Source: Spiroplasma tabanidicola (lineage in GTDB: Bacteria > Bacillota_I > Bacilli_A > Mycoplasmatales > Mycoplasmataceae). From it: a DNA stretch of 64,000 nt. The translations under genes and the position numbers were made by a program. Shown in pieces: positions 21,812-60,577 of the stretch. The first letter of the stretch is position 1. Each line of letters starts with the position of its first letter. The stretch covers positions 434,001 through 498,000 of the forward strand of contig NZ_CP046276.1 in assembly GCF_009730595.1 (NCBI RefSeq), written 5' to 3'. The notes under the pieces are model-generated. The model did no database searches. It had not been told where the DNA came from and worked only from the letters and a program-made list of their open reading frames with translations.

Positions 21812-22540
21812 ATGTTAGAAGTTAAAAATTTATATAAAGTATTTAAAAATGATGTAGGTGTAAAAGATATCAATTTAAAATTTTTACCAGGAGAAATAAT
21901 AGGTATACTTGGTCCGAATGGAGCAGGAAAATCAACTTTATTAAAACTTATCTTTAAAGAGTATAAAAAAGATAGTGGAGAAATAATTTATCAAAATGAA
22001 CAAGGAAATTTAAAAGGATTTAGTTTTTTCACAGATCAGTCATTATTTCCTAAAAATGTAACTTTAAATTTTTTTTGTATGTATAATGCAGAATTAGCAG
22101 GAATAAAACCTAAAGAAGCAAAAAAAAGAACAGAACATTTATTAAAGAATTTGGAGTTAGATAAATATAAAAATAAAACTTTTAGATCATTATCGGCTGG
22201 TATGCAAAAAAAAGCGATGTTAGCAGTATCTTTAATAAATGATCCAGAAATTATTTTTTTTGATGAACCAACAGCTAATTTAGATATTGATTCAAGAAAA
22301 GAATTAATATCATTGATAAAAGATATGAAAGAAAATAATAAATCTATTATAATTGCTAGTCATATTTTAGAAGAACTAGAAACTTTAATTGATAGAGTTA
22401 TTGTCATAAATAAGGGTAAAGTAGTTGTGAATAAAAAGTTTGATAAAGAAAAAGAAAATTTAGAATTGATTTATTTTGAGAGTATCAAAAATGAAAAGCG
22501 AAATAAAAACTTTAAAGATTTAATGAAATGAGATAAGTAA
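21812..22540 (+). CDS. ABC transporter ATP-binding protein (copy 2)
   Basis: A 242-residue ATPase, paralogue of the one at 17122 with equal length. It has Walker A GPNGAGKST, signature LSAGMQKKA, Walker B IIFFDEPTANLD (Phe replaces the usual Leu before Asp), and H-loop IIIASHI. It is the partner of the permease starting at 22540, whose ATG overlaps the stop codon by one base. No strong SD is visible before its ATG (ATCACAAAAA), unlike copy 1, so expression may be lower or depend on the upstream leader. Confidence 0.92.
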
Positions 22541-24275
22541 TGATGAAATTTTATATATGTTTTAAATATGCACTTTTTTCAATTTTTAAGTCAAAATCAA
22601 CTTTAATTGTAACAATTTTTTTCTTGTCAACAATTTTTCTAATTAATTTAATATTTGGACTTTATATTAAATTAACTCAAGCGGAATCTGTTGATTTGTT
22701 TGTTTTAAATTATATTAACACAGTTTTAATTTTTATTTTTTTAAGTGTTGTTTCTATACTTTTATCAAATGAGTTTTTTACAATCAAAAGAAAAATGGTG
22801 TAAAAACAATAGAAATAAAAAATGGTATGAAAATATGAGAAATATTTTTTTCAAAAGTATCAGCTCTTTTATTGGTTATTTTTATATTTTCTATAATTAT
22901 TTCCACTGTTGTTGTTATAGAGTCGCTAATAATATTCAATGATAATATTTTTGTAACTAAACTTTTATTTATAAATTTATACATTATTTTTTTAGTGCCT
23001 CTATTTGTTTTTTCTTTAAATTTGTTAATTGTAAGTTTAAATTTACAAAAAATTAGTTTAATCTTTTCAAGCTTTTTTATGGGATTAATGACTTTATTTT
23101 ACTTAATAAATGCCGTTTTATATGAATTTAAAAGTGATTCTGGTAAAAATGGTAGCAATCTTATATCAAGCAGCGAATATAATTTTTACCTTAGATACTA
23201 TATTAAAACATATGAAGAAAAAAATAAAAAAGAAAATAAAATTATAAGTGATTTGGTAGAATATAGTAAAAATTCTGAAAAAATGAAAAATCTAATTCAT
23301 TTTGATAATTTGGAAAGTTTAAATTTAGAAGAAAGTCGTCTAAAAGATTATTACTTTAGATTTATAACAGATAATAGTTTTTATAGCAGTGGTGATTTAT
23401 TTTCTAATATAGATTTATTTAATGAATTTAATAAAACATATTTAATAAAGGATGAATATTATAGAGAAGCTAAATATGATGCTAGTTTAATTGAAAATAA
23501 TTTATTATTTAAGGAACTTTATAATTTCAAAGACACAAAAAATGAAAATGATATTTTTGAGTATAATGACTATAAAAACTTAAAAAAAAGTTCTACTTAT
23601 TTACATGAACTTAATAGTTACATAAATAAATTGGAAAATTACTTTAAAATAAATAATGAAATAAATTCATATTATTTTGATTTAAAGTCTATAAATAAAT
23701 TGATTTTGGAAATTTATAAAAAAGGATTTTATTTCACTAACCAAATACTTATTTTATCTAATTCGGTTGGAAGAAATAATTCAAATATTGTAGATTTTTT
23801 AAAAGCACCTTTTAATGAAAAAATTGATTATATTAAAAATCAAAAAATTCTTTTTAATATGCAAAAAACTTCTAGTGCAAAATTACTTTATCAAGGCATT
23901 TTGTTTTATCTAGTTAATAATTGAAACTATGAAGAACCTTTTACAAATAACACAGAGCAGCCAGATAGTTTTACTTTAAGTTCTTTACAAATGGCAAACT
24001 ATTATACAAGTCCATTTTTATGATTAGAATTTTTAAGCAAGTTTGGGTTAGTGGATAAAACATTTGATAACATAACCACAATAGAAAGTGCAATTTTTTA
24101 TAAAAGTAATAATTTTTATATAATAAATAATTCATATTTAAATAATAAATATATTATAAAAGATTATGTTTATGAAGGTCCTAATACAGCATTAATGATT
24201 TTTTTGATATTAATTTTTAACTCAATTTTAGTTTTATTTGCATATTCATTATATAGATTTAATTTCTATAAATAA
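22540..24275 (+). pseudogene. ABC-2 type permease (copy 2), split by a one-base frameshift
   Basis: The first frame (22540-22803) gives 87 residues with two helices and stops at TAA 22801. The continuation lies in the next frame and is open from before 22800 to TAA 24275, reading through TGA. Restoring one A in the A run at 22791-22795 joins them: EFFTIKRK then NGVKTIEIKNGMKIWEIFFSK. This junction aligns with permease copy 1 (SMIFDHENGIINLEVSKGFKQSELLLYK) at the same position. The joined product is about 578 residues with N-terminal helices, a large hydrophilic region and a final helix, like copy 1. It may be a pseudogene, a phase-variable gene, or a sequencing error. Confidence 0.75.
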
Positions 24276-24404: not shown

Positions 24405-24899
24405 ATGACAGATCAACAAGCAAATAGTATAAGTGATTTTATTGATAATTTAGATGATGAAATAGCAGATAAGATGTTTGAAGAATTAATTGCAGGTATG
24501 AGCTTATACTTTGCAATATTAATTTTTGGAGAACAAATCGATAATGTCTTTGAAGACCCTGCTAATAAAGATAAATCAGCAGAAGAAAAAGCTAAAATAA
24601 TAAAAAGTAATTCAGTTAATGAAGAAGATGTATATGCTGCTTTAATGGGAGCTTTATCAGAAGAAGAAAAAGCTCAAGATTTTGCAGAAGATTGTGTTCA
24701 ATCAATTGCATTTAATCCTGAATATCCTCAGGTTTTATTAGATAAAATAAAAGAATTAGAAATTGAAGAACAAGATTTCTCATGAAATTTAATAGTTACA
24801 TTTAAAGATCAATTTATTGATTTCTTTGTAAATGATTTAGATATTGAAGAATGAAAAAATGATATTATTGATGCTTTAGTAGCAAGTTGAGAACAATAA
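24405..24899 (+). CDS. Acidic hypothetical protein, 164 residues
   Basis: I do not recognise the family. The product (MTDQQANSISDFIDNLDDEIADKM...) is strongly acidic, helical, has no cysteine-rich, membrane or signal segment, and includes three or more Trp read from TGA near its end. It has a good promoter and an AAGGAG ribosome site, and a terminator of its own follows, so it is a single-gene unit that is probably well expressed. Confidence 0.75.
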
Positions 24900-25079: not shown

Positions 25080-25343
25080 ATGTTTCTAGCTAAAACATTT
25101 TTTAAAGTATTAACTTTTGAAATTCCATTATGAGTGATTTTGTTAATTTTTGCTTTAATTGGGATTGCTAGTTTATCTATTTACTTTTTTATTCTTTTTA
25201 GAAAAAACAAAAAATTTGTGTATGAAAAAGAAGAAGTTTCAGCAAAAGATTTTAAAAGATTAGACAAATTTGAAACTCTTAGAAATGATTTTGAAGTAGA
25301 AATCGCACAAGTTAAAAAAATTAGACGTAATTCTAAAAAGTAG
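25080..25343 (+). CDS. Single-helix membrane protein, 87 residues
   Basis: MFLAKTFFKVLTFEIPLW leads into a hydrophobic helix (about residues 16-42, VILLIFALIGIASLSIYFFILF), then a basic stop-transfer (RKNKK) and a charged cytosolic tail ending RRNSKK. It is a small bitopic membrane protein of unknown function. AAGGTGA is the ribosome site. It lies 32 bases before the N/Q-rich membrane protein gene and is likely co-transcribed with it. Confidence 0.65.
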
Positions 25344-25375: not shown

Positions 25376-27031
25376 ATGAGTGTATTCAAAAAAATTACAA
25401 GTTCTATCATTGGTGGATCAAATAGGGAAAATCAACAAAATATTGTTGATGATTTTGCGTTTCAACAAAACCAAATGAATATGCCAAATCAAAACAACTA
25501 CCCTATAAATCAGTTTAATCATCATCACCAATATAATTCAAATAATATGCAACAAAATCAGTTTAACAACCCACAAATGCAACAAGGTTTTTCAAATCCA
25601 ACTAGTATGTATCAAGAACAATTGATTAATCAAAAAAATTATGTTCCTATGCAAAATAATAACCAATATATGGAAACAAATTTATATAATGAACCTCAAG
25701 TTGTAAATAATAGTTATCAAAATCCTTATATTAATAACCCAAATCAATATCAACCACAATCTCAAAACTTAAATTATCAACCTCAAAATAACCCTAATCT
25801 AAATTTTACAAATGCACAACAAGGATATATTCAACCAGAATTTCAAAATTATCCAAGAAAAAATCGCAACCCAAATAATTATTACAATGATAATATGTTA
25901 CAGCAACCAGCTTTAGACTTTGATAATATTAATCAAATTGATTATGGAAATTACTATGATCCTAATCAAGAATATTTACAAAATCAAAACTATATAAATC
26001 AAAACTTATATCAAGGTCATATTCAGTATACAAATCATATTGAACAACAAAAAATGCAAAATCAAGGATTTAATAACTACCAAGCAAATCAAAATATGTA
26101 TCAAAATCAATATTTTAACCAAGCACAAACATATTATCGTCCTGAAAGTTATGCAGCAAATCAAATGGTAGGATATCAAAGAAGCCCTGCTAATAACTAT
26201 AATGGTTATAATAATAATACTTATAAACAAAGATTTTCAAAATCTAACATAATCCCAAATGAAATTGCAAAAGAAATTAGAGCAGAAAAATTAAGAAATG
26301 CTTTATTGTTTTTAATCGGATTGACAGGAATAATTGCAACATCTCTAATGTTAGCAATTTATTATAAAACAAGTAATCAAAATGAAAAATGGTTAATATT
26401 TAGTAGAAAACATACTATTTATCCATTCTTTTCAATTTTCTTATTATTAATTTCAACATGTTTCTTTTTTATGAGTGTCACAGATTATACATTACTAACT
26501 TCAAATGTTAAAAAATATGAAAGAGATTTATTGAATGGTAGAGAAATAGTTCCTTACTTTATAACAAGAAACTATCGATCAATAATAGCAAGAAGTGTTT
26601 ATATTAATTGGATTGGATTTTCAACATATATAGTTGGTGCAATCTGTTTAGGAATTTTATATGGATTACAAGCTTTATATAAAGAACATCCTGATGAACC
26701 TATTACTATTTTCTTTTGAAAAATAGGTACAATGAAATCATTTGAATCTGATATTATTGTAAATATTGTTGTATTAATGTCTGTATTTGGAGTTCATATT
26801 TTAAATATAATTACTTCAAGAAGTAGAAAAAATAATATTATTAGTTATTATGGATATGAAATAATACCACAACATGAAATTAATGCTATTAGAAAAAAAG
26901 CAAATAAAATTTGTTTAATAATATTTATTGTTGTTTGTTGTATTATATTATTTGCAATATTAATTCCTTGACTTGTAATTAGAAAGAAAAAAGGATTAAG
27001 TTGAAAACCATGACAAAGAAGCAAGAATTAA
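25376..27031 (+). CDS. N/Q-rich membrane protein (MSC_0882-like architecture)
   Basis: A 551-residue protein in two parts. Residues about 15-290 are dominated by Asn and Gln with Tyr, Pro and Met (for example NQNNYPINQFNHHHQYNSN), which is low complexity and prion-like in composition. Residues about 305-540 carry five hydrophobic helices separated by basic loops, ending in a basic tail. This order resembles the MSC_0882 family of Mollicute membrane proteins, but I could not verify that. The N-terminal part has no signal peptide and should be cytosolic. The gene has a GGGGCG ribosome site, and its 3' end overlaps the hemW start by 22 bases when TGA is read as Trp. Confidence 0.75.
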
Positions 27032-28202: not shown

Positions 28203-28970
28203 ATGTTAGCAGATTTACAACATAGAAATTTAAAAGAACTTGGATCATCTTTTTATTTTACAAAGCTGAACTTTACTTTTAAAAATGATGAAAACTTAGC
28301 GTTTTTTGTTAATCCTAATTTAATTAAACACAAAGTTACAAATAAATATTTCAGGTTACTAAATTATTCTGTCTTGTCAAATGACTTTGAAACAATTAAC
28401 GATTACATAAAAAACGATTTTCCAAGCTCAAAAATAAAGCATTTATTAAAGTTAGTTGCAAAGACTACTAAAACACTATTTGAGAATAGATTTAAAAATC
28501 AAGTTGATTATGAAAATCTGTTTAAATTAAATATTTATTGTCAGTTATTTTTGATTTACATCAGATACAACCCAAATATTTGATTAAAAATGGATATAAA
28601 TAATTCTAAACAAATCATGAACAATGGTCCTTTGGATTGAAGTATCATTTATTACATAATTAATTATCATGTATTAAGAGATAGTAGATTTGATCTTACT
28701 AAAACTCAAAAAAGCATTATAAATAAATTAATGTCAATAGATTTAAATGACAACAACATTCAAACAAGGGACATTATTGATGAAATTGTTGCAGAACCCA
28801 TATTAGTCATAAAGGTATTTGTTATGCAAAGAGAAGTTATTAAAAGTATGAGAAATCTAAGAACAAGCAAAAGAAAATATAAACACCTTTTATTTTCAAC
28901 TGCTATGCAATTAATAATTCATTTTATTAATAATAACATTGATGATTATACTAGAGTGACAAACCATTAA
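28203..28970 (+). CDS. Hypothetical protein, 255 residues
   Basis: I do not recognise the family. The product (MLADLQHRNLKELGSSFYFTKLNFTF...) is basic, rich in Ile/Leu/Asn/Lys and probably helical, without signal peptide or clear membrane span. A Lys/Arg-rich patch (SMRNLRTSKRKYKHL) near the C-terminus could bind nucleic acid, which is only a suggestion. It has its own AAGGAAAA ribosome site and is bounded by terminators at both ends, directly before the clpB heat-shock promoter. Confidence 0.7.
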
Positions 28971-29028: not shown

Positions 29029-29055
29029 TTAGCACTTTACTATTGACATTGCTAA
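29029..29055 (+). promoter_or_regulatory. CIRCE operator 1 of clpB (HrcA site)
   Basis: TTAGCACTT and CATTGCTAA are separated by exactly 9 bases, the CIRCE layout (consensus TTAGCACTC-N9-GAGTGCTAA). Its spacer and right arm contain the -35 TTGACA, so bound HrcA would block RNA polymerase. Confidence 0.88.
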
Positions 29056-29078: not shown

Positions 29079-29105
29079 TTAGCAAAAGAACGTATAGAGT
29101 GCTAA
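29079..29105 (+). promoter_or_regulatory. CIRCE operator 2 of clpB (HrcA site)
   Basis: TTAGCAAAA-N9-GAGTGCTAA: the right arm is a perfect consensus half-site, while the left arm keeps TTAGCA. It lies just downstream of the -10, about at the transcription start, 15 bases before the clpB ATG. Confidence 0.88.
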
Positions 29106-29120: not shown

Positions 29121-31268
29121 ATGGATTTTCAACAAAAACCAGACCCTTTAAATGATCCAGAAATTTTAAGTAAATATACAAGGGATTTATCAAAGGATGC
29201 AAAAGAAGGAAAAATAGACCCTATTATTGGTAGGGATGATGAAATAATGCGAGTAATTCGTATATTAAGTAGAAAAACAAAAAATAACCCTGTTCTTGTA
29301 GGAGAGCCAGGGGTTGGTAAAACAGCTATAGCAGAAGGGCTTGCTCAAAGAATTAATAAAGGCGATGTCCCAAGCATCTTAAAAAATAAAAGAATTTTAG
29401 AACTAGATATGGGAAGTGTTATGGCTGGTGCTAGCTATCTTGGAGATTATGAAGCAAGAATAAAAGGGATAGTAAATGCAATTCAAAAAGAAAATGGAGA
29501 GATAATCTTATTTATTGATGAGTTACATTTAATTGTTGGTGCTGGAAAAACCGGTAATGGAGGAGGAATGGATGTTTCTAACCTTTTAAAACCAGCTTTA
29601 GCTAGAGGCGGATTAAAAGCCATTGGTGCAACAACTTTAAAAGAATATCGTGAATATATTGAAAAAGATGCCGCTTTAGAAAGAAGATTTCAAAAAGTTA
29701 TGGTATCTGAACCAACAGTTGAAGAAACAATATCAATTTTAAGGGGATTAAAAGAAAAGTTTGAAACATATCATGGAGTAAGAATTCATGATAATGCTTT
29801 AGTAGCAGCAGCACAATTAAGTGATAGATATATTGCAGATCGTTTTTTACCTGATAAAGCTATTGATTTAGTAGATGAAGCAAGTGCAACAATTAAAACT
29901 GAGTTAGCTTCTGTTCCCACTGAATTATATCAAGTTGATAGAAAAGTTATGCAATTAGAAATTGAAAGAGCTGCTTTAAGCAAAGAAACTGATGAAAAAT
30001 CAAAAGAAAGATTAACTTTTAATGAAAAAGAGTTAATGAAATATAAAACAATTCAAAATGAATTAACAAGTAAATGAGAAGAAGAGAAAAAAGCTCATGA
30101 AAAAATTAATCAATTAAGATCAACAATGGATTCATTAAAAACAGAACTAGATCGTGCTCAAGCAGAAGGTAAGTTTGAGAGAGCAGGAGAGATTCAATAT
30201 TCTTTACTTCCAGCGATTGAAAAACAATTAAAAAAAGCGGAAAAAGAAGATGAAAATCAATTAATGTCTGAAGAAGTCTCAGAAAAAGAAATTGCAACAA
30301 TTATTGGAAGATGAACAGGTATTCCAGTTGAAAACTTAATGGAATCAGAAAAACAAAGATTATTAGGTTTAGAAACTTCACTTCGAAAAATGGTTAAAGG
30401 TCAACCAGAAGCATTAAAAGCTGTTAGCGAAGCAATTTTAAGAAGTAGAAGTGGAATTAAAGATCCATCAAAACCGATTGGTAGTTTCTTATTTTTAGGT
30501 CCAACTGGGGTTGGTAAAACTGAAGTTGCAAGAAGCTTAGCAAAACAACTATTTAGTAGTGAGAAAAAAATGATTAGACTTGATATGAGTGAGTATATGG
30601 AAAAACACTCAGTGTCTAAATTAATTGGATCTCCTCCGGGATATGTTGGATATGAAGAAGGTGGAAGACTTACTGAAGCTGTGAGAAGAAACCCTTATTC
30701 AATTGTATTATTTGATGAAGTTGAAAAAGCTCATCCTGATGTATTTAATGTGTTGTTACAAATTTTAGATGATGGAAGAATCACAGATTCTTTAGGAAAA
30801 ACAATTGATTTTAAAAATACAATTATAATTATGACTTCAAATATAGGATCAGATTATTTAATGACCACTGAGCCAGAACTGATTGATGAAAAAGAAATTG
30901 AAAATATGCTTAAAAAATTCTTTAGACCAGAATTCTTAAACAGAATCGACAACATTGTAAGATTTAATCCTCTTTCAAAAGAAGTTATTAGAGAAATTAT
31001 TGAAAAAACTTTAATTGAATTAAAAGAAAGAATTACTGAAAATGGAGAATATATAATCAACTTCTCAGAAACAAGTGTAGAAAAAATCTTAAAAGAAGGT
31101 TATGATAGAGACTTTGGAGCTAGACCAATTAAAAGATATATAGAAAAAAACATCGAAACTGTAATAGCAAAATCAATAGTTTCAAGTGAAATTGAACCTA
31201 AAAGAAACTATGTTCTAGATGTACAAAATGATCATTTTGTGGTTTCTAGTTCAAATAAATTAAATTAG
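29121..31268 (+). CDS. clpB: ATP-dependent disaggregase ClpB
   Basis: ClpB works with DnaK to pull apart protein aggregates. The 715-residue product has two AAA+ modules: Walker A GEPGVGKT (61-68) with Walker B LFIDELH, and Walker A GPTGVGKT (about 460) with [10 protein letters not shown]. Between them is a coiled-coil M domain ([19 protein letters not shown]...), which separates ClpB from ClpC/E. The usual N-terminal substrate domain (about 145 residues) is absent: the protein starts right at [13 protein letters not shown]. This corresponds to the short form also made by internal initiation in other bacteria. Two CIRCE operators and an AGGAGG ribosome site precede it. The terminal TAG is part of the hrcA CIRCE. 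Confidence 0.97.
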
Positions 31269-31291
31269 CACTTGACTACATTAAGTGCTAT
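31265..31291 (+). promoter_or_regulatory. CIRCE operator of hrcA
   Basis: TTAGCACTT-N9-AAGTGCTAT, a 9-9-9 inverted repeat that overlaps the clpB stop codon and contains the -35 box of the following promoter. It implies HrcA autoregulation. As RNA the same repeat could also act as a weak clpB terminator. Confidence 0.85.
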
Positions 31292-53296: not shown

Positions 53297-53323
53297 TTAG
53301 CACTTTACACTTGACAGTGCTAA
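53297..53323 (+). promoter_or_regulatory. CIRCE operator of lon (HrcA site)
   Basis: TTAGCACTT-N9-CAGTGCTAA, again a 9-9-9 inverted repeat; its spacer and right arm contain the -35 TTGACA of the lon promoter, the same geometry as CIRCE 1 of clpB. Confidence 0.9.
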
Positions 53324-53338: not shown

Positions 53339-53372
53339 TATTTTGTACCAATATAAATTTAGGGGGAATAGT

Positions 53373-57872: not shown

Positions 57873-57908
57873 AAAAAAATCCTTTGTATTTACAAAGGAT
57901 TTTATAAT
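57873..57908. terminator. Bidirectional terminator between convergent genes
   Basis: AAATCCTTTG and CAAAGGATTT pair around a TATTTA loop, with A residues before and T residues after, so it can stop transcription from both the + strand gene ending at 57866 and the - strand lipoprotein gene ending at 57902. Confidence 0.85.
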
Positions 57909-60577
57909 TTTTTAGTACTTTCTATTGTTCAGCTTCTTTTTGTTGCATATTCGATTAATTTAACTTGATATTTTTTCTCAACACCATCAATTGGTGATCG
58001 ATATGTTATTTCCATTTCAATGTTTCCATATTTATCTTCATCAGTGATGTTGCTATATGAAACCATTTTATAACTAAAGTTATCATTAACAATATATTTA
58101 TCAATATTTGTTTTAATATATTCTTTTTTAATATCACTTAAACTTTTGAAATCACTTAACGCATTATCTCTTATTTTAATAACACTTTCATCATCAAAGA
58201 TATTTTCAATAGCAGCTAATGGAGAACCTTGATTAAAAGTTTTTTGTCCATCAACATATCCTAAAGCATATAAAGCACCTTTAGCACCTGCATAAATTTG
58301 TTCTTCTGAACCTGGTTTTAGTGCAGGTCCTTTTACAGCATATCCTGGGAATTTAATCAAGTTAAGTGCAATTGTTATTGGGTTATATTTCCCATCTTCA
58401 TCTCCGCTTGTACCTTTCATATTTTTAACAATAGATTTATCACTTTTATAAACTACTTGAATTTTGTTTTCTACTTTTAAACTTCTTGCAAGTGTAGTTA
58501 TTCCATCATTTACAAGACCAACTCTATTATCTGGTTTTGATTTATCATAATTTTTTCTATTTTCATCATTGTAATATTCTGTAAATTTTTTCAATAAACT
58601 TTCAATTGTTCCAGAATCTCCTAGATCAACTCCTAATAAATTTTGAATATTTATTGGTTTATCTCATAGTTTTTTGTTAAGCAATTCTGTAATTAATTGA
58701 GAATCTTTATCTCATAAAGCATTAAATCCTTTTGCCATTTTTGCAGTAGTTTCATCACTAATTTTTATACCTGTATCAAAGAAAGTGTTAATTGTATATA
58801 GAATTGATGAAACTCCTTGGATACTTCTATTATTTGAAATTGTATCTAATAATACTCCAGCAAGTCTTGATATAGCACTCCCTCCAAGACCCTTAATTAT
58901 TCCAGGAATACTTACTCCATCTATCATATCTAAGATTTTATATCCAATTCCTTGAATAATTCCGTTTAGTAATGAATCAACTCCGACAACTTCTCGGTTA
59001 AACATTCCTCCAGTTAAAGCTCCTAATTTGACAATATCAATTAAGTTAGCATTTTCTGAAAGTTTATAATCAACTCCAAAAGGTTTATTTGGATCTTCAT
59101 CTGGATTTCTTGATGCATTTGAATAACATAGTAAGAAAAATATTCTTTGCATGCTATACATACTTTTACTATCTTTAACATTAACAGCTCTAGTAATATT
59201 TTTTAGTAATTTATAAGCGCTAAATTTAGTTTTATTAGGCATACCTGATGAATTAATGCTGTTATTATAGTCAATTACTAACATTCTTTTCTTTTCATCT
59301 TTTTGATTATTCATTATTGAAGCAAATGTTTTATTATCTAAAACTTCAGCCATGTTTGAATTTATTCCTTGGAAATAAAATAAACTATCTGATCCAAGGC
59401 TAGTTGATAAAGTATTATCCATTTGTTCAAAATCAAAAATACCAATATTTATTATTAAACTACATAGTATGAAAAATAAATCTGAAATATTTTCAATAAT
59501 AGCAACATAGTTTAATTTATCTTTATTTTTTACTAAATATAAAATGTTTTCTCCTAAATTTTCTTTGAAAAACTCAGGTTTATCAATTGGGTGATAATCA
59601 TCCATTTCCAATTGTAATCTTATTGGATCGGTTTCAGGTGTGTTTGCATCAATATTTCTCCCGCTTAGTCTAATTAAAAGTTTATTTAATCTAACTAATG
59701 CTGATTGTTGAACTACTTTTGGAGTTAATTGAAGATTTACATCGATTGGAACTTCAGGATCTTGATTTTCTAACTCTTCTTTTGTTGGTTGATATTTTCC
59801 TTTAAAATCGTTGAACATTATTTCATTAATATAATCTTCTAAAATAAAGGGAACAACTGTACTTTTATCTGGTCCACCAGTTAAAATAGTCACTAATTCT
59901 TTTAATGCATCTTGATCTAATGTACCTGAATTTATAAAGTTAATATTAAAAAATAATCGACATAAAATTGATACAATTCCAGTTTTTCCAAAGTCATTTA
60001 GTAATTGTTGTGCATATGGTGCTAACTTTTCAAATGTATTTAATGCGTTATCTGACATTTTAAAATCAACACCATCATCACTTAAAAAACCACCAACTTC
60101 TGGTAAAAGACTTTCTAATATTCCTCCTAAAGATGGTTTGATTCCTCCTGCAGATTTAATAGCAGATAAAGCAGTTGATCCAGTATCAATAATGCTATCT
60201 GCAAATGAATCAGGAGATATTCCATCATCTAGAGTATAACCATTAGAATCACCAAGCCCAGTGTAAAATTTTTTATCTAATGGGTCTTCAAATGTGGCAT
60301 TAACAAAATCACTTACTTTTGCTTGTGGAGTTGCTTTAAAAGTCGGTAGCATATCATTCATTTTTTTGCTACCAATATAGTTATTTAAATAATCAACACT
60401 TATACCTTCAGCATCGTTTAAAATTGCTCCTCTAGAAGCAACACTTGCTACATCAACAATTGAGTCAACTTTATTTTTTATATATTGTTTTTTATAGTTA
60501 ACAAGAGAACATGATGTCACAGAAAAAACTGTCGTAGACATAGACAGTGCACTTACAATTGCGAGTAATTTTTTCAT
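57902..60577 (-). CDS. Large lipoprotein, 891 residues
   Basis: The only - strand gene. It begins MKKLLAIVSALSMSTTVFSVTSC, a classic signal peptide with lipobox VTSC, so the mature protein is anchored at Cys 23 on the cell surface. The rest is a large helical and Gly-containing domain with several Asn/Asp-rich loops; I see no catalytic motif. Three TGA-encoded Trp codons lie near 58600-58714 and 57929, and ignoring them would split the gene. AGGTGAT precedes the start. It shares a 129-base divergent intergenic region with a giant FtsX-type permease. Mollicute genomes often place such lipoproteins beside these permeases, so a functional pair is plausible. Confidence 0.82.

Follow-up and report, generated by a model that had tools for sequence, protein, structure and literature searches.

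An N/Q-rich tail of prion-like composition on an MSC_0882-family membrane protein of Spiroplasma tabanidicola

The 551-residue protein encoded in the analyzed window (a stretch of 64,000 nucleotides from the Spiroplasma tabanidicola genome, itself one contig of 1,284,335 bases) is an MSC_0882 family member by every feature tested, and ahead of its membrane domain it bears a long tail that is prion-like by composition. This composition is far above what AT-rich sequence yields by chance, and tails of the same kind are kept across a whole clade of relatives. The reading we tentatively prefer, at a little short of an even chance, takes the tail for a sticker-rich scaffold, disordered and tethered to the membrane, that carries a few partner motifs and would assemble with itself. 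The features discussed below are as follows.

25376..27031, + strand: whole gene for the MSC_0882-family protein, 551 amino acids by code 4, stop codon included
25376..26236, + strand: N/Q/Y/P-rich low-complexity tail, residues 1-287, of prion-like composition (from composition, controls and scores), probably cytosolic
25376..25408, + strand: N-terminal motif, residues 1-11 (MSVFKKITSSI), from its hydrophobic moment and cross-genus recognition
25601..25645, + strand: YQxxLIxxKN motif, residues 76-90, recognizable beyond its own genus
25910..25954, + strand: LDF...IDYGNY motif, residues 179-193, recognizable in one other genus and borderline in a second
26270..26989, + strand: MSC_0882-family membrane domain, residues 299-538, with five hydrophobic helices
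about residues 306-330, 346-374, 410-431, 455-482 and 505-538, + strand: helices of the MSC_0882 domain, from hydropathy
25080..25343, + strand: upstream TIGR04561 family membrane protein, 87 amino acids
27001..28125, + strand: hemW-like gene downstream (TIGR00539), which shares 22-31 bases with the end of the 551-residue gene, depending on the hemW-like start

Four TGA codons inside the gene are read as tryptophan under code 4, by which the broken table-11 frames in the window merge into full genes. The table-11 end of the gene at 26717-26719 is a false stop, TGA being a Trp codon there, so the gene extends to 27031. The original prediction placed the tail correctly, at 25376..26260; the end of the gene needed correction. 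Residues 299-538 match NF045846 along the entire profile (1-244 of 244; 211.4 bits against a cut-off of 60, E 1.1e-62). Hydropathy gives five hydrophobic stretches in this domain, and a low-confidence model has five long helices (pLDDT 59); family match and hydropathy thus agree with the prediction of an N/Q-rich domain fused to a five-helix membrane part. A PDB search found no sequence relative of the domain, only one chance match at E 0.98, and a fold search with the weak model returned nothing at E<=0.001.

It is mildly favored by the loop charges that the tail is cytosolic. A long tail (300 residues) that lacks a signal peptide is seldom exported. With the tail inside, the inner loops would hold 18 K/R and the outer parts 14, of which 7 fall in the C-tail RKKKGLSWKPWQRSKN; the odd number of helices would then leave this very basic C-tail outside. 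The earlier claim that the tail sits under the membrane is accordingly helped a little by the charge counts and opposed by the position of the C-tail. In the literature, MSC_0882 is only named as a hypothetical transmembrane protein in the available part of one paper (PMC1798306), the available part of another (PMC6609329) holds nothing usable on the family, and a search of open-licence literature found no published report on the tail.

The stretch 25376..26260 encodes 295 residues under code 4, with N at 23.4%, Q at 18.0%, Y at 10.5%, P at 6.4% and M at 4.1%. Its richest 80-residue window contains 40 Q/N, against a threshold of at least 30 in 80 for prion-like composition. Random AT-rich translations (2000 of 280 amino acids, built from the window's own dinucleotide chain) had a mean of 13.2 Q/N per 80 and a maximum of 21. 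Open reading frames of the same genome gave a mean of 12.9 (218 frames of at least 100 amino acids, from the window and ten 20-kb stretches, 264 kb or about 20% of the genome), and at least 30 was reached by 7 of the 218, the 551-residue gene among them; the tail is thus unusual within its genome, yet not alone. Dominance by N, Q, Y, P and M, as originally described, is borne out by the composition and by both controls. The description of "almost no charge" is slightly strong for residues 1-287, where charge is low at 5.2% D+E and 4.2% K+R, and the remark that other disordered regions are mostly charged agrees with the charged make-up of 42 of 48 other very polar stretches. A PLAAC-like score, computed from approximate tables with a simple 60-residue window and not with the PLAAC program, was 32.6-32.9 for the tail, while no random translation exceeded -3.4, the criterion for a prion-like domain being a PLAAC LLR of about 20 or more; on this comparison with random AT-rich translations, proposed at the outset, the tail scores high. 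Its PAPA-like score, again from approximate tables, was 0.135, and 12 of the 218 frames lay above 0.05. FoldIndex for the tail was -0.249. An AlphaFold model was mostly coil at pLDDT 45, with residues 1-196 below 50 and a weak helix at residues 196-250 in this low-confidence model, an unfair test of disorder as the input was a single sequence. Profile searches gave no NCBIfam or Pfam family match to the tail (no Pfam match over cut-off). These family searches gave no sign of a globular fold in the N-terminal part, the outcome that would have spoken against a prion-like tail.

The sampled stretches also encode four further N/Q-rich proteins that lack a family match (L101:5992-7017, L102:8633-9331, L101:10995-13040 and L098:9642-12272, all on the + strand), three of which seem membrane-helical by eye, while one has repeats of the QQYMDNQQLYPN type.

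The MSC_0882 domain scores over its profile cut-off in all 60 genomes of the family and in 251 of 320 genomes of the order. Measured up to 20 residues short of the first helix, the tail spans 129-314 residues in 42 of the 60 and 33-83 in the other 18, so the long tail is no oddity of one isolate; a comparison of lengths among strains had been proposed at the outset. Long- and short-tail groups form sister clades (support 0.97 and 0.975 in a midpoint-rooted FtsZ+MSC_0882 tree). At least 30 Q/N in 80 was found in 37 of 42 long tails and in none of the 18 short ones. PLAAC-like scores from approximate tables were at least 20 in 25 of the 42 long-tail genomes and in 0 of 18 short-tail ones with the yeast background, at least 10 in 41 of 42 with that same background, and at least 20 in 32 of 42 with the own-genome background. 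PAPA-like scores exceeded 0.05 in 27 of 42 (4 of 14 in genus g8), and tyrosine makes up 8-14% of the tails in genus g1. One family genome (G005, L061) has a tail with about ten tandem copies of a repeat of the NPYQPQQNQPQF type, which points to a recent expansion.

NF045846 covers the membrane domain only, and most of the members listed outside the family are open frames of about 250-320 amino acids; the 551-residue protein is longer because of its tail. Tails outside the family were viewed in genomes picked for long open frames or as neighbors among the 320. N/Q-rich tails occur there on the MSC_0882 domain of G149 in family f7 (Q 32%, P 20%) and, in genus g46 of family f8, of G296, G300 and, in shorter form, G298. 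Two other genomes of g46 (G295 and G304) have charged tails, as does G281; those of family f9 are about 160 residues long and charged rather than N/Q-rich, and those of family f11 about 100-110 residues and of mixed composition. With these separate cases in two other families, an N/Q-rich tail seems to have originated on this domain on more than one occasion.

The 87-residue protein is encoded by a separate gene upstream, and matches TIGR04561 at 86 bits (cut-off 30, E 1.2e-24). In the family, 58 of 60 genomes have a TIGR04561 match at E<=0.001, 45 of them over the cut-off, and G005 and G019 have none; all 45 over-cut-off matches among the 320 genomes lie inside the family, so TIGR04561 is nearly confined to it, whereas MSC_0882 is order-wide. 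Adjacency was scored within the family, and outside it G311 and G313 were viewed by eye. The TIGR04561 gene lies directly upstream of the MSC_0882 gene on the same strand in 58 of 58, the two being an estimated -1 to 81 bases apart. This conserved pairing backs the linkage that the original prediction drew from spacing, and co-transcription of the two genes is probable. By eye, Mesoplasma seiffertii (L097) has obgE-like, nadE-like, TIGR04561-like, MSC_0882 and clpB-like genes in this order, which the window matches, with fewer intervening genes in Mesoplasma seiffertii. Two genes that flank the locus, at 24405-24899 (164 amino acids, acidic) and 28203-28970 (255 amino acids), both on the + strand, had no NCBIfam or significant Pfam match. 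Further upstream, two membrane-protein-like genes at 22540-24275 (+) follow an ABC ATPase gene (21812-22540) and have no NCBIfam match; they perhaps form an exporter. Elsewhere in the window, CIRCE-like inverted repeats with 2-3 mismatches (0.02 expected) occur at 29029-29055, 29079-29105, 31265-31291 and 53297-53323 (+), upstream of clpB (two), hrcA and an 805-amino-acid frame at 53343, and an 891-amino-acid protein at 57902-60577 (-) just reaches the threshold for MOLPALP lipoproteins (65.2 vs 65 bits).

Substitution patterns suggest that the tail is under mostly weak purifying selection. Among 187 pairs examined, the readings rest on close, nearly gap-free ones, as gappy alignment and high dS leave tail dN/dS in distant pairs with little meaning. 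In close pairs, dN/dS was 0.03 (G042/G044), 0.07 (G042/G029), 0.25 (G035/G043), 0.19 (G022/G023) and 0.29 (G016/G019), and the tail evolves faster than the MSC_0882 domain. Four genus g8 pairs with few changes gave 0.81, 1.43 (G020/G017), 0.99 (G020/G021) and 0.84, so constraint on the tail is weak in places. In an alignment of tails from the own genus, identity reaches 80% or more in 44 columns; 20 residue shuffles, a control that ignores shared ancestry, gave 4-14 such columns. With the profile built from this alignment, the tails of g6 and of one of the two g10 genomes clearly outscored every one of 100 shuffles, those of g9 and g8 only partly.

Five motif blocks were tested in other genera, with p values uncorrected for some 50 tests. 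The N-terminal block was recognizable in g8 (12 of 14 at p<=0.01), g4, g6 (p 0.013) and one of two g10, and absent in g9; the YQxxLIxxKN block in g4, g6 and g9 (3 of 3 at p<=0.05); and the LDF-IDYGNY block in g6 and, as a borderline case, g9. Blocks M1 and M4 were not recognized in other genera beyond chance, and matches of similar p also occur in a few short-tail genomes, such as G059 for the N-terminal block. Residues 1-11 form the peak hydrophobic moment of the tail in its own genome, but the moment at the N-terminus is unmatched by later tail windows in only 7 of 42 genomes (G000 included) and is absent in g9, so an amphipathic helix there is weakly indicated.

Taken as a scaffold, the gene product would be an integral membrane protein of the MSC_0882 family whose N-terminal tail of about 285 residues, probably cytosolic and disordered, is anchored to the membrane by the helices, with the amphipathic first 11 residues perhaps adding to this hold. 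Through contacts among Tyr, Gln and Asn the protein would associate weakly and reversibly, both with further copies of itself and with other N/Q-rich proteins, and the few short conserved motifs would pick particular partners. A heritable amyloid state is neither needed nor proposed. This reading draws on a composition that neither chance nor most of the sampled proteome matches, on the retention in 37 of 42, on dN/dS below 1 in most close pairs and on the separate N/Q tails in two other families. Against it count the 18 of 60 genomes that keep the MSC_0882 domain with a short tail (33-83), the charged tail of f9, PAPA-like scores above 0.05 in only 27 of 42, and the pairs with dN/dS of 0.8-1.4.

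It is rather unlikely, if still a serious competitor, that the tail serves as a flexible tether. It would then act as an inert spacer or entropic brush that does not self-assemble, N/Q richness being one way among others to stay soluble and unfolded, and what matters in it would be the N-terminal segment and a few short linear motifs alone. Conserved motifs, including one with a set place at the N-terminus, would suit such a tether, as would the freely varying length (129-314) and the charged tails that replace N/Q-rich ones in f9, G295, G304 and G281; the g1 level of tyrosine and an N/Q bias kept in 37 of 42, however, exceed what a spacer needs. Low-complexity drift, in which a tolerated extension with no function of its own filled with AAT and CAA codons in an AT-rich genome, seems improbable to us. 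The tandem repeat in G005 and the few close pairs with dN/dS near or above 1 fit drift, and the available part of one survey reports Tenericutes and Mycoplasma with high fractions of N/Q-rich, prion-predicted proteins (PMC6400439). Random AT-rich DNA, however, peaks at 21 in 80 where the tail has 40, dN/dS is well below 1 in most close pairs, and motifs are shared between genera.

Proteins of cell division also rank among the most N/Q-rich in the sampled 20% of the genome. SepF (PF04472, 3e-17) reaches 39 Q/N per 80, the FtsA-like protein (TIGR01174, 4e-13, below cut-off) 38 and FtsZ, the eighth in rank, 27. The three genes lie in a row at L105:7448-10719 (-) (about 927.4-930.7 kb), with N/Q-rich parts in the N-terminal part of SepF, the FtsZ linker (weaker) and the C-terminal tail of the FtsA-like protein. 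Together with SepF, FtsZ of Spiroplasma assembles into ring-like structures at the membrane, according to the available part of a report (PMC11987601). In most long-tail genomes of the family the FtsA tail is rich in N/Q and carries little charge (a mean of 30.5 Q/N residues against 13.0 in short-tail genomes). Raw counts correlate with the MSC_0882 tail for FtsA (rho 0.64) and FtsZ (0.60) but not SepF (-0.07), the SepF row being weak since it covers N-terminal parts from some of the genomes only. Independent contrasts on the FtsZ+MSC_0882 tree erase the FtsA correlation (r -0.19, p 0.16) and give 0.27 (p 0.036) for FtsZ and 0.30 (p 0.059) for SepF, uncorrected over ten tests, and covariation with the divisome did not survive the phylogeny correction. 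The N-terminal part of SepF is 41% Q/N in the own genome and at most 30% elsewhere among those measured, and G149, G296 and G298 have N/Q tails on MSC_0882 with no FtsZ match; a divisome link was rejected on the contrasts and these genomes. The own genome has many MreB copies, and all 42 long-tail genomes of the family have strong MreB matches (E about 1e-128), while none of the 18 short-tail ones does. Inside the family the tail thus occurs only with MreB; this rule fails overall, for G308 and G309 of f9 keep a charged tail with no full MreB match (G308 a fragment). As 42 of 42 against 0 of 18 amounts to one clade split, which these f9 genomes contradict, the MreB match was rejected as evidence. 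We give little credence to a role in division or cell shape in which, at the membrane, the tail would associate with the MreB ribbon or with the N/Q-rich regions of FtsA and SepF.

Among known systems, E. coli ZipA and FtsK have P/Q-rich, membrane-anchored cytosolic disordered linkers of uncharged residues; those linkers lead to a folded domain, whereas the free end of the MSC_0882 tail bears a short motif alone. Bacterial prion-like domains such as that of Clostridium botulinum Rho, in the available part of the literature, are likewise N/Q-rich and low in charge, with high PLAAC-like and PAPA-like scores; unlike them, the tail is tied to a multi-span membrane protein and is prion-like by composition. 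The available part of PMC6400439 describes about half of the bacterial prion-like domains as having a coverage of C<=0.1 and the domains as mostly sporadic in evolution, against which retention of the MSC_0882 tail in 37 of 42 is wide. Since the same text reports high fractions of N/Q-rich proteins in Mycoplasma and Tenericutes, the N/Q-rich class is already known, and the new part is the clade-wide retention of such a tail on a multi-span membrane protein.

A prion-like domain is thus joined to an order-wide membrane family and kept across a whole clade, and the tail offers an entry point to what the MSC_0882 family does. It is conceivable, if very doubtful, that in these wall-less bacteria N/Q-rich membrane-associated proteins (the MSC_0882 protein, FtsA, SepF and other multi-span proteins of its genome) co-assemble by like-with-like contacts into a low-complexity coat on the inner face of the membrane; such a coat, if it exists, would do the job of a wall or fixed scaffold, for example in marking the division site. 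If the tail assembles, it would offer a simple membrane-bound test system for N/Q/Y stickers in a wall-less cell.
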